Source of the DNA: Sneathiella marina
Lineage (GTDB): Bacteria; Pseudomonadota; Alphaproteobacteria; Sneathiellales; Sneathiellaceae
Direction of reading: 5' to 3'
Assembly (NCBI RefSeq): GCF_023746535.1
Contig: NZ_CP098747.1
Span: 688,364 to 752,363 of the forward strand
DNA: 64,000 nt
Shown piece by piece: positions 21,433-44,206 of this stretch. The notes beneath the pieces are model-generated. The model had not been told where the DNA came from. It searched no databases and saw only the letters and a program-made list of their open reading frames with translations. The first letter of the stretch is position 1, and each line of letters begins with the position of its first letter. Made by a program: the position numbers and the translations under genes.

Positions 21433-21471
21433 TGGAGCCCACGAGCGGTAACGAACCACCGACACGCGGAT
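21433..21471 (-). repeat. tRNA-Phe 3'-half repeat, copy A
   Basis: This 39-bp match to the 3' half of tRNA-Phe (44131-44169) has six mismatches and the same orientation. It covers CCA end, acceptor 3' strand, T arm, variable region and anticodon-stem 3' strand, and stops at the anticodon loop. Like all five copies, the T-loop ATT of the tRNA (plus-strand sense) is replaced, here by TAA. It flanks the DUF2189 gene on its left. Confidence 0.8.
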
Positions 21472-21594
21472 AGTGTTTCAGTATGCGATCTCAATCTTCT
21501 GCCTCATGGACGCTTACGGGAAACGCGGCGAACAACTGATCACGATGGTCTTTTCTCTAGATGGTAAAGTTGGCACTAATGTAAACTCACAGAA

Positions 21595-22509
21595 TTACTC
21601 TGTTGCAGCAAGATTGCCGGTGGGATGAATTTCACCATTTGGTAGATCGCCGGACATCACTTGCTTATAGGCATGCCAAGTCGCGTGGCCAATGAGCGGT
21701 AGTGTGATGATCAGTCCAATTCCGGCTGTGATTAGACCAATTCCAGTGAAAACCACTATTATTGCTGCCCAAAGGATCATGGCGTTGCGATTGTGGGCGA
21801 CAGCAAAGGCGCTGGTAATAAGTGACGGGAGCAACATTGATTTCCGGTCTAGCATCATTGGCATAGAGAAAGCCCCGACAAAGAAGATGCCGGTGGCAAA
21901 AACAAAACCAACAAGGGCAATCGAAATCCCGAAATAAACACCTTCTAAACTGATGGCGCGCATTAAGATGATGCTCCATTCAGGCATAATACCTGGAAAG
22001 TTCAGCGCAAATACTGTGAAGGAGAGGCGAAGCCATACCTGAAAAACAAAGGTAAGTGCCACACCAAAGCCAAAAATTCCCAATTTATTGTGGCGCGCCG
22101 CCGTAACTGCAGTCAGGAGAGTGACTTTCTCGCCTGCCGCATGACGACGGCTGATCTCGTAAAAGCCGATCCCAACGGCAGGTCCCACAAGAAGAAAACC
22201 GCTCAGACTGGGAAGTATCAGATAAGGCCAGCCCAAGAAGTAAAAACCAAAAGATATAATCAGCCCCAAGATAATGAACAAAGCAGCATAGCTGGTACTA
22301 ATCGCCGAATTGGCTTTCAGATCGGACCAGCCGGCGGCGAGCCATTTCCAGACATCTTCCGTACCCACTTCGCCTACCAAAGCCATCTCCTTAATCAGGA
22401 AATTGACATTCTTTGGCCCGTAGTGCGGTTGCGCTTTCTGTTTTTCGTGATTTTGGGGCTCGTTTGTTGTCACTTCTTCCGTGAGTGTGGTTTTTTCTTC
22501 GTTCTCCAT
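21595..22509 (-). CDS. DUF2189 family integral membrane protein
   Basis: This 304-residue membrane protein has about six to seven helices after a charged N-terminal stretch. Family landmarks are IKEMALVGEVGTEDVWKWLA, GWSDLKANSAISTSYAALF, GPAVGIGFYEISRRHAAGEK and the closing PLIGHATWHAYKQV. I start at ATG 22509 (ribosome-binding site GGGAAA). A longer frame would run back through repeat copy B and is artefactual. Function of the family is unknown. It is alone between repeat copies A and B. Confidence 0.85.
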   Translation of the reverse strand: MENEEKTTLTEEVTTNEPQNHEKQKAQPHYGPKNVNFLIKEMALVGEVGTEDVWKWLAAGWSDLKANSAISTSYAALFIILGLIISFGFYFLGWPYLILPSLSGFLLVGPAVGIGFYEISRRHAAGEKVTLLTAVTAARHNKLGIFGFGVALTFVFQVWLRLSFTVFALNFPGIMPEWSIILMRAISLEGVYFGISIALVGFVFATGIFFVGAFSMPMMLDRKSMLLPSLITSAFAVAHNRNAMILWAAIIVVFTGIGLITAGIGLIITLPLIGHATWHAYKQVMSGDLPNGEIHPTGNLAATE

Positions 22510-22667
22510 ACATTCATTTCCCAGTGCACGCGGATCAAGGAAGCGTAAAAGCATTGCAAGGTTTAGTAAAGTCCTCTGATATGTCCAAAAGGTACAGAGC
22601 ATTCTGATTTGTGCATCAAAACTGCCGCTGGAGACTGATTTGTACGAGATTTGCGGATGAGAAAAAA

Positions 22668-22706
22668 TGGTGCCCAGGGGCGGCAACGAACCACCGACAC
22701 GCGGAT
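22668..22706 (-). repeat. tRNA-Phe 3'-half repeat, copy B
   Basis: This is the best-preserved copy: only three mismatches to tRNA-Phe over 39 bp, all in the T loop (CAA for ATT in plus-strand sense). It lies 38 bp downstream of the nasA stop, in the same direction, and is followed on that strand by CCA and a T6 run, so it might also end the nas transcript. Confidence 0.82.
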
Positions 22707-22743
22707 AATAAATGGTTGATTGCAGCTGAATTGTCTGGAGCTT

Positions 22744-42253: not shown

Positions 42254-42278
42254 GAGGGCGTAGAAAAGGCCTGTACAC

Positions 42279-43646
42279 ATGAGCGGAAAAAGACACGCCA
42301 TTCTAGTTGCCACCAGTGACTTTCCCGAAGATGACTCACTGACCAACCTACGTTGTCCCCTGCAGGATGTGGAAACGTTGGGTGAGGCCCTCGGTGCTGA
42401 TAATCATGGGGGGTTTGAACATGTTCATATACTCAAGAACGAACCTCATTATGAAATTCTCAAAAAAGTAAACCGAGTGATCAAAGCGGCGGACCGGGAA
42501 GATATGGTAGTGTTCTTCTATTCAGGGCATGGCAAGCTCGATGAAGCTGGACGGCTGTATTTGGCGACGACCAATACCTCGGTTGATGTGTTGGAGGCAA
42601 CATCAGTGCCGGTGTCGCAGATCAAGGATTATTTCGATGTTTCGGCAGCGAACCAGTTGGCAATCATCCTTGACTGCTGCTATAGCGGCGCCATTGAAAA
42701 ATCCTTCACCAAGGGAACGGTCGATGAACAGCTCAACCTGATGTCCGGCGGCAAGGGTACCTATGTGCTGACCGCCTCCACCGGCTTGCAGACAGCGAAG
42801 GAAAACGAGGGAGACGATCTCAGCGTTTTCACCAAGCATTTGGTCAACGGAATCCTCAGCGGCGATGCTGATACAGATCAAAACGGCGTCATTACCCTCA
42901 ACGAATTGTATAGATATACGTTTAAGGAGGTGCAGAAGGACAGTCACCAGAAGCCAATGAAGTGGGATCTCAATGTAGAGGGAGAGCTGATTATCGCCCG
43001 CAGCGGCAAGAGCCACTGGAAAAAACGCCGGGATGTGGTGCAGGAGAAACTTTTGGCCATGGGCGCGGCGCGAACTTTGCCCAATTCAATTCTAACAGCG
43101 GCGCTTTCACTGTCAGAAAAAGCGCCGGGAGAAATTAAACCCCACGAAAAGAAACACTATGCCTTGCTTGCCTGCTTTGCCGACGAAGACATGCGCTCGG
43201 GTGGGTTTACCGAAGCATGGCTGGCCGTAAAACAGCCGCCAGAACCACAGTTAAATACATCAGAACTAGAATGGTCTACCAAACCTGCGTTGAAGCCTGC
43301 CCTTCAGGAAACAACTACTACTGCAGCGAAGAAGCAACCGGCTCAAGTGTCACTGAAGGTGGATAAAAAGCACGAAAAGAAGGAAAATCTAATTTGCTTT
43401 GCCGTCGCTATCGCTGGTTTTTTGATCATATTTCTGTTTTCCAACGAGGCAATTGATGGATCCGAGGACATGGAAGCTATCGTCGTAGCTATGTTTTTGG
43501 GAGTATGTGTCGCTGTCGCCGGATTATTTTTCACTTATCGAAAACGCAAATCTCGACTACCTTTCACTGCCAAAATTCAGTATTGGGGATGGGGCATTTT
43601 CTACGTAATGAGTTTGATCGTTATGATTGAGGAATTGCCTCAGTAA
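42279..43646 (+). CDS. Caspase-like (C14) protease with C-terminal membrane anchor
   Basis: This 455-residue protein has a p20-type caspase domain at about 5-225. The His-Cys dyad is visible: H84 in FFYSGHG and C134 in ILDCCYSG. An acidic loop DADTDQNGVITLNELY (196-211) resembles the calcium loop seen in metacaspases. A linker of about 150 residues leads to three hydrophobic segments (about 371-387, 400-420, 434-450), so the protease faces the cytoplasm from the membrane. It is paired with the EACC1-like gene. The likely role is regulated proteolysis in stress or phage-induced suicide; that is inference from the family. Confidence 0.85.
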   Translation: MSGKRHAILVATSDFPEDDSLTNLRCPLQDVETLGEALGADNHGGFEHVHILKNEPHYEILKKVNRVIKAADREDMVVFFYSGHGKLDEAGRLYLATTNTSVDVLEATSVPVSQIKDYFDVSAANQLAIILDCCYSGAIEKSFTKGTVDEQLNLMSGGKGTYVLTASTGLQTAKENEGDDLSVFTKHLVNGILSGDADTDQNGVITLNELYRYTFKEVQKDSHQKPMKWDLNVEGELIIARSGKSHWKKRRDVVQEKLLAMGAARTLPNSILTAALSLSEKAPGEIKPHEKKHYALLACFADEDMRSGGFTEAWLAVKQPPEPQLNTSELEWSTKPALKPALQETTTTAAKKQPAQVSLKVDKKHEKKENLICFAVAIAGFLIIFLFSNEAIDGSEDMEAIVVAMFLGVCVAVAGLFFTYRKRKSRLPFTAKIQYWGWGIFYVMSLIVMIEELPQ

Positions 43647-43681
43647 CTTCCTTTCGTTACATAACTTCGTAGGGTCCTATC

Positions 43682-43876
43682 TCAGTTCACAATTTTTGAT
43701 GCATTCTCTATAATTGGAGTGACAAATAGTTTTTGCACTATTGCGAACAGCGCAGGAATTAGAATAGTGATAGCTAACATCGTGCCGATGCTCGTTGTAA
43801 AAGGCCAATCTGGGATTGCGCATATTCTATTATGAATGTCAGAAAGTGAGGATGTTTGCTGGAATAGGGTATTCGT
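43682..43876 (-). pseudogene. Possible remnant of a membrane-protein gene
   Basis: This minus-strand frame of about 64 codons has no ATG near its beginning and opens after a stop. It contains IPDWPFTTSIGTMLAITILI, then PALFAIVQKLF, which looks like a C-terminal transmembrane helix with a short tail. It lies between the caspase gene and tRNA-Phe. I recognise no family. It may be leftover island DNA or chance. Confidence 0.25.
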
Positions 43877-44130
43877 CTCCTATTTGTCTGTCGTCATGCA
43901 ATTGGAACACAGAGCGGTCTGATCTAAGGGAGGATCCGGTTCGTCAAATTCAAGTTATTATGCGATACATTTGCGGGATGATCTTCCCGACAGATAGTTC
44001 ACAGATTATTCCGATCACATAGGTTACACAATGAGCGCTTTGCGAAGGAGTGTGAAGTGCCATGGAAGGAATGTTTCCCATGTCTTGGGTACAATTTGTA
44101 ACCTATGTCTCCGGGTCGACTAAGAAAAAA
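43877..44130. other. Region between caspase block and tRNA-Phe
   Basis: I see no supported gene. The sequence ends in TAAGAAAAAA directly against the tRNA CCA end; on the minus strand this is a T6 run that may end the tRNA transcript and that recurs at the repeat copies. Confidence 0.35.
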
Positions 44131-44206
44131 TGGTGCCCAGGGGCGGATTCGAACCACCGACACGCGGATTTTCAGTCCGCTGCTCTACCAACTGAGCTAC
44201 CTGGGC
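44131..44206 (-). tRNA. tRNA-Phe (GAA), CCA encoded
   Basis: This 76-nt gene on the minus strand has acceptor GCCCAGG/CCTGGGC, D arm GCTC...GAGC, anticodon stem GCGGA/TCCGC with loop CTGAAAA (anticodon GAA), T arm GGTGG-TTCGAAT-CCGCC, discriminator A and encoded CCA. Its 3' end faces the accessory zone (lower coordinates) and its 5' side the conserved yacG-rng block. It is the template of the five 39-bp repeats. Confidence 0.97.

Follow-up and report, generated by a model that had tools for sequence, protein, structure and literature searches.

The 64-kb stretch of Sneathiella marina DNA analysed here (the window; bases 688,364–752,363 of the genome's single contig of 4,067,215 bp) carries a tRNA-Phe gene (GAA), the 3′ half of which recurs five times on its 3′ side. 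These displaced copies, numbered 1 to 5 from the tRNA outwards, separate five blocks of genes lying between the tRNA and a calcineurin-like phosphoesterase gene (Table 1). The contents of the blocks were confirmed by Pfam and NCBIfam as the coherent units that the initial annotation of the locus had described, and its conserved core genes on the 5′ side of the tRNA were likewise found: an RNase E/G family gene and seven more stand there in the same order as in G002, a member of a comparison set of 24 Sneathiella genomes (G000–G023) in which G000 is the window's own.

Over a 39-bp core corresponding to positions 44131-44169, the copies beginning at 21433, 22668, 31984, 33333 and 41514 differ from the tRNA at 6, 3, 4, 7 and 6 positions, respectively, and a mismatch scan agreed with the initial annotation that all five have the orientation of the tRNA and lie on its 3′ side. 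The repeated unit is really 44 bp long, with 5 bp beyond the core that run through an A-run, the tRNA's poly-T tail. All five copies, moreover, share a T-loop that the tRNA lacks, TTCGTTR in place of TTCGAAT (ATCGTTA in the copy at 41514). No further match with 11 or fewer mismatches exists on either strand of the 64-kb window, the next one (12 mismatches) falling in a tRNA-Thr gene; in 200 first-order Markov windows, searched on either strand, the best match had 14 mismatches versus 3–7 in the real copies. A search of the whole chromosome for the TTR form of the core (at most one mismatch) returned five sites, all of them in the window, and a reversed-pattern control returned none; neither hundreds of copies across the genome nor one block order shared by all relatives was found.

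A sixth, degenerate copy lies 8.4 kb outside the window (G000:C1:680003), with the T-loop TTCGGTA and 10 mismatches in 44 positions; its nhmmer E-value is 1.3e-4 with a profile lacking the composite row and 1.7e-5 with that row. The gene F2, which in G014 and G020 comes after the last copy, sits another 8 kb past this degenerate copy in G000. Because of the copy at 680003, and because the relatives have no common far flank, the accessory zone is longer than the 22.7 kb first assigned to it: its five blocks stand, its end at 21433 does not, and the island extends past the window.

Table 1. Features of the tRNA-Phe locus, in window coordinates
Feature	Position	Strand	Basis
tRNA-Phe (GAA), anchor, T-loop TTCGAAT	44131..44206	-	ARAGORN, sequence
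Repeated unit: tRNA-Phe 3′ half and T-run	44126..44169	-	sequence match
Copy 1 (closest to tRNA), T-loop ATCGTTA	41509..41552	-	sequence match
Copy 2, T-loop TTCGTTA	33328..33371	-	sequence match
Copy 3, T-loop TTCGTTG	31979..32022	-	sequence match
Copy 4, T-loop TTCGTTG, otherwise unchanged	22663..22706	-	sequence match
Copy 5 (outermost in window), T-loop TTCGTTA	21428..21471	-	sequence match
Tyrosine integrase remnant, residues 14-43 of G018 integrase, 77% identical	41565..41654	-	tblastn
Remnant of same family, residues 275-312, 89% identical, one stop	33183..33296	-	tblastn
Block 1 (2.6 kb), interval between copy 1 and tRNA unit	41558..44125
Caspase, EACC1-associated type	42279-43646	+	NF047832 (E 8e-49); PF00656
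Block 2 (8.1 kb): RND permease, HlyD-type fusion protein, TetR, LysR, GST, lumazine-binding-like	33377..41508		Pfam/NCBIfam
Block 3 (1.3 kb), interval between copies 2 and 3	32028..33327
Short-chain dehydrogenase, block 3	32137-32913	+	Pfam/NCBIfam
Block 4 (9.3 kb): nitrate assimilation	22712..31978		Pfam/NCBIfam
Molybdopterin oxidoreductase, nitrate reductase/formate dehydrogenase type, block 4	22744-25434
Rieske protein, block 4	25424-25768
NirB, block 4	25772-28246
NarK-family carrier, block 4	28621-30099
PP2C-kinase fusion, block 4	30131-31852
Block 5 (1.2 kb): DUF2189 membrane protein, open reading frame 21595-22686	21477..22662		PF09955
Calcineurin-like phosphoesterase past copy 5	19942..21159	-	Pfam, gene order in relatives
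Conserved genes 5′ of the tRNA: RNase E/G family and 7 others	44659..51947	-	order same in G002

Empty and filled sites across the genus

The 3′ side of tRNA-Phe was inspected in 19 of the 24 genomes (G004, G006, G007, G008, and G013 being left out), of which G010 and G019 offer less than 4 kb of it on the tRNA-bearing stretch. Displaced copies were collected by a profile search, and the totals of 46 and 37 given here keep rows with E<0.03, omitting weaker matches (E>0.03), the tRNA genes themselves, and the opposite-strand match in tRNA-Thr (G000:C1:743799). On contigs that bear tRNA-Phe, all 37 copies, from 11 of the 19 genomes and including six from G000 itself, lie on the tRNA strand and on its 3′ side, a count in which mostly 3′ sides were sampled. 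An intact tRNA followed by same-strand fragments on its 3′ side, as in additive islands, is thus seen in the window (5 of 5 copies) and across the 11 genomes together (37 of 37, with the six of G000 counted in).

Comparison with relatives, which the initial annotation had proposed as a check, places the presence and absence of blocks at the copies. The phosphoesterase gene of G021 (86% identical to the window's) is the first gene 3′ of tRNA-Phe, and the DNA of copy 5 and its phosphoesterase flank aligns with that of the G021 tRNA and phosphoesterase from the repeat on, over about 490 bases; judged by this alignment, the G021 site lacks all five blocks. In G023, the DUF2189 gene stands first beside tRNA-Phe and aligns with the flank of copy 4, with gaps between repeat and gene. 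Six of the 11 aligned flank pairs are homologous through the repeat and into the block (G000/G021, G000/G023, F44 in G003/G001, F9 in G002/G003, F2 in G014/G020, and F56 in G016/G022); in the other five, no copy was detected in the second genome, and homology begins at the repeat end or within the block.

Blocks also differ in their distance from the tRNA: F44-F43-F42 adjoins it in G003 but in G001 stands behind a copy at a distance of 19 kb, and F9 adjoins it in G002 but in G003 stands behind a copy at a distance of 31 kb. Such shifts would be expected if, after a few founding insertions, blocks had been shuffled by homologous recombination between the 44-bp copies, both within the array and with incoming DNA, and the uneven divergence of the window copies and the loss from G000 of any intact integrase of the remnant family (both described below) agree with this. 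A length of 44 bp is, however, short for efficient homologous recombination, and the integrase remnants speak for the involvement of site-specific elements, so that shuffling as the main process is rather unlikely.

The altered T-loop and the point of exchange

Across the 46 displaced copies, the last three bases of the T-loop are AAT in 21, TTG or TTA in 17, and otherwise in 8. T-loop columns 21-23 are changed in 21, 22, and 24 copies, with the same counts from a cleaned profile, and the T-stem columns in 1-8. A58 is kept in all 19 tRNA-Phe genes compared (18 with TTCGAAT and one with TTCAAAT); T at this position, which pairs with T54 when it is A, should disable a tRNA. The altered T-loop was therefore either borne by an element or acquired later with a strange uniformity; arrival with the incoming element is the preferred explanation, and later change is possible for the window copies. 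Since their T-loop is not that of the tRNA and is one of two states found throughout the genus, the window copies are not simply displaced tRNA ends.

The same flank may carry AAT in one species and TTR in another, as with the phosphoesterase (G021 and the window, respectively), DUF2189 (G023 and the window), and F9 (G002 and G003); F44 is a counter-case, with AAT in G003 and G001 alike. None of eight displaced tRNA-Met copies found by scanning has TTR, and six of them keep the T-loop of their tRNA, three despite a decayed 3′ side; TTR is therefore no general fate of displaced tRNA ends. In four tRNA-Met copies (L150 6475, L151 2820, L152 2520, and L159 2918) the T-loop looks like a border, three retaining chiefly the segment that runs from the anticodon loop to the T-loop and one chiefly what lies 3′ of it. 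Class-wide, the TTR core was matched in 12 of 387 genomes, two of them Sneathiella (G000 and G003); the 11 loci in the 10 other genomes showed by eye no extension into tRNA-like sequence and were taken as chance. Named genomes gave four records, one a Sneathiella metagenome-assembled genome and three that look like chance; the repeat is present in the record JAIOYL010000018.1 (Sneathiella sp.).

The copies fall into three classes. Class A copies, found in relatives, have the left arm CCACGCGGACTGAAA, which forms a dyad around the anticodon loop (CACGCGGA-7-TCCGCGTG); most of them keep the T-loop of the tRNA, and integrase genes or pieces lie near several. Class B copies have a conserved leader of about 45 bp, an altered variable loop, and either T-loop. 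The window copies form class C: they match the tRNA from ATCCGCG onward. Cargo-free class B copies, consisting of bare leader and repeat, occur 99 bp apart (G002:C184:25684 and 25783) and 89 bp from the tRNA (G022:C3:238799, 238710). A reading frame crosses the repeat, and the peptides upstream of some copies resemble each other; the repeat is not claimed as coding because most upstream frames contain stops.

Host sequence running from the anticodon loop to CCA, the mark of insertion at that loop, is present in most class A copies; the window copies instead have TTR in five of five. The anticodon-loop crossover that the initial annotation had inferred thus finds no support in the window, where the copies share no left arm and carry, 3′ of that point, a T-loop foreign to the tRNA. 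It could be retained if the copies were displaced functional ends from plain serial insertion, their T-loops altered by later decay. The class A copies, with their dyad and mostly unaltered T-loops near integrase genes or pieces, are what this account would predict, and the integrase family of the window remnants has a relative at tRNA-Met whose perfect 50-bp repeat starts in the anticodon arm. Decay should be scattered, yet exact TTR occupies three adjoining positions in as many copies as stated above, with the remainder largely unchanged, and most tRNA-Met copies have kept their own T-loop, some of them through decay of the 3′ side. Later decay of ordinary tRNA ends is thus a possible but doubtful explanation.

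A role in RNA structure or regulation, with the copies acting as tRNA-like terminators or processing signals between operons, was also considered. The altered T-loop adds one T-stem pair (54-60) in 20 of 25 non-AAT copies, but shuffled partners reach as many such pairs in 70% of trials and the hairpin is set apart from the T-run; on these grounds a terminator or other RNA role was rejected. That blocks come and go at the copies, and that G021 has an empty site, further disfavours it, and it is held to be extremely improbable.

The zone in the window is, with high probability, a tRNA-anchored additive island produced by repeated insertion at tRNA-Phe, with the altered T-loop supplied by the elements. 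Insertion of this kind is argued for by block borders at the copies, empty and filled sites in relatives, and integrase remnants. Mobile elements with tRNA-targeting integrases would have entered repeatedly at the Sneathiella tRNA-Phe, each time keeping the tRNA whole and placing a duplicate of its 3′ half at the distal boundary of the inserted DNA. The elements' own attachment site would have supplied the stretch up to and including the TTCGTTR T-loop, and strand exchange would have taken place at the T-loop or at the junction of T-stem and acceptor 3′ of it rather than in the anticodon loop, because only this leaves an essential tRNA its functional T-loop. The T loop and the T/acceptor junction are named, alongside the anticodon loop, as known integration subsites in the relevant part of an account of tRNA islands (PMC4383910). 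The integrase genes would then have decayed, leaving cargo blocks of 1.2–9.3 kb.

Several observations weigh against this interpretation. The GC content of the blocks (0.447–0.480) equals that of the flanks (0.452–0.483), and base composition, being flat between them, thus gives no support for insertion. The left sides of the five copies have no common arm: a resemblance is seen only between copies 1 and 3 (12 of 16 bases, by eye), and ACTGAAA, with four additional bases, is retained in copy 5. Copies with the anticodon-arm dyad twice have a TTR-like T-loop (G018:C9:1358966 and G010:C155:690), for which the proposed point of exchange does not by itself account, and two class B copies that are not TTR stand side by side with ones that are. 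A TTR site on a free element was not found, with no exact match in viral contigs; matches in 94 plasmid records and 9 phage matches count for neither side. Finally, changes outside the T-loop number 3, 4, 1, 0, and 3 from copy 1 to copy 5 and do not rise with distance from the tRNA. If all blocks had used the tRNA as their point of entry, the fewest changes would be expected in the copy closest to it, and a simple stack with the newest block beside the tRNA is therefore not what is seen; in G003, in keeping with the window, the farthest copy is the least changed.

Integrase remnants and growth within the array

The two tyrosine integrase remnants of the window adjoin copies: that at 41565..41654 ends 12 bp 5′ of copy 1, and that at 33183..33296 begins 31 bp 3′ of copy 2. 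Block 2 is thus bracketed by an integrase N-part, ahead of copy 1, and a C-part, following copy 2. Their reference is a 313-aa tyrosine integrase encoded 0.9 kb before a copy in G018, with matches in 11 of the 24 Sneathiella genomes. A broken gene, 87% identical to it, stands before a copy in G003, and fragments of this type occur in G022 and in G018 itself. In G005, an intact relative (65% identical) lies in a 10.5-kb element that extends from tRNA-Met to a perfect 50-bp repeat of that tRNA's 3′ half, beginning in the anticodon arm; the same element holds, at L117 3929-5298, about 19 CRISPR-like direct repeats with 66-bp spacing. G011 has an intact relative (48% identical) at tRNA-Met, with a 55-bp repeat (96%), and G019 a more distant intact one (41% identical). 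The anticodon stem common to tRNA-Met and tRNA-Phe may explain how the integrase moved between them. A second integrase, of 429 aa, is encoded immediately 3′ of tRNA-Phe in G019, and a piece 51% identical to it follows a copy in G010. The integrase family of the remnants may have driven the insertions in the window.

A genome-wide search for relatives found no intact integrase of the G018 family in G000, remnants only; in viral contigs the G018 integrase had no relative. Among the matches listed for Phage_integrase (E<=1e-5), none falls in the window and at least three lie elsewhere in G000; the integrase-type proteins among them, named by eye, are XerC-like, XerD-like, and one P4-like, the last in a 10-kb stretch without a tRNA. 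The window blocks thus lack the integrase gene for each island that an Islander-type tandem array would have. The N-part before copy 1 and a piece after tRNA-Phe in G018 (G018:C9:1256633-1256764) break at the same codons, 41-43, and at this place the intact G018 gene has DNA similar to the tRNA's anticodon-loop core (12 of 17 bases, by eye). From about 1256830 on in G018:C9, what we take by eye to be an IS6-type transposase cuts the integrase fragment after tRNA-Phe. The shared breakpoint raised the idea of a suicidal integrase like that of archaeal SSV, which was dropped as a curiosity, the intact G018 gene having no internal attachment site; such integrases are described as archaeal only in the passage of PMC8371274 that deals with them.

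The non-monotonic divergence of the copies and the integrase halves around block 2 together suggest insertion into the array itself, on small numbers and with two integrase pieces that may come from different genes. Some blocks, with block 2 as the best case, may have entered at an existing copy rather than at the tRNA. Taken further, the TTCGTTR copies could constitute a second site class, descended from the tRNA-Phe 3′ end but owned by elements and disabled as tRNA, at which small blocks with one copy and no integrase insert copy into copy by means of others' integrase. The array would then behave as a set of cassettes unable to damage the tRNA that anchors it, and block 2 would be one such event, inserted at a copy inside an older integrase remnant. 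This extended version is speculative and, on balance, unlikely. Of the initial proposal of serial insertion or cassette-like exchange, serial insertion is supported, with breakpoints at the copies and integrase remnants at two of them; exchange is no more than hinted at.

Cargo of the blocks and related islands

NirB of block 4 shares 50-62% identity with the NirB matches that 10 of the 23 other Sneathiella genomes gave; at so low an identity, it is not a recent vertical copy. The predicted start of the DUF2189 reading frame extends 24 bp into copy 4. Two 28-bp sites in block 2 (37982-38009 and 38759-38786), 86% identical, flank the TetR gene and are likely operators; the first holds the palindrome ACATACCGATCGGTATGT. 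Past the last copy, the stretch 12456-19587 holds a gene for an RTX-repeat protein (861 aa) close to a type I secretion pair of ATPase and adaptor.

In integron cassette arrays, each of the small units of cargo ends in a single repeat. Here the repeat is tRNA-Phe-like throughout, and the recombinases of G000, as named above by eye, include XerC- and XerD-like proteins and one unrelated to them; an integron was set aside on these names, no IntI model or attC search having been run. Among the tRNA-end islands, the Islander-type ones resemble the present case in having a regenerated tRNA and a displaced fragment at their ends in the same orientation; a tandem array there requires an integrase and a fragment for each island, whereas the window blocks have fragments and no intact integrase, and the table in the part of PMC4383910 consulted lists four arrays of three or more islands, compared with five blocks here. 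The Methylophilaceae island fGI-2 at tRNA-Lys is likewise variable in size and content, lies beside a tRNA, and contains recurring tRNA-end repeats, but these are described as 20 bp long (PMC10872708, in its section on fGI-2); the Sneathiella repeats measure 44 bp, have a changed T-loop and are accompanied at two window copies by integrase remnants. Tycheposons of Prochlorococcus, treated in the same source, are also tRNA-ended carriers with nitrogen genes in their cargo and a tyrosine recombinase; the resemblance need not reflect kinship, and the window blocks have no remaining recombinase gene. The Dehalococcoides ssrA islands, as far as the relevant sections of PMC3146451 describe them, share with the window a series of tandem repeats (more than 12) of an RNA gene's 3′ end. 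Fifteen of those islands are reported without an integration module, insertion is in the T-loop, and a 15-bp motif just before the repeat belongs to the element and not to the host. They depend on CcrB-type serine recombinases and tmRNA, in contrast to tyrosine integrase remnants and tRNA-Phe in Sneathiella, where serine recombinases were not searched for.

Additive islands at tRNA ends are thus already known, and Sneathiella is a new and unusually legible example. Open-licence literature, judged by title, offered nothing on Sneathiella genomic islands and did not deal with displaced copies whose T-loop has two states. Within one genus, 24 genomes show how a tRNA gene can come to serve as an expanding insertion site for metabolic and conflict genes, occupied and unoccupied forms occurring together. 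The two-state T-loop may separate insertions in the anticodon loop from those further 3′ or of copy into copy, which repeat length alone cannot do. Should the altered T-loop turn out to belong to the elements, it would become possible to test directly how islands can accumulate without damage to the tRNA.

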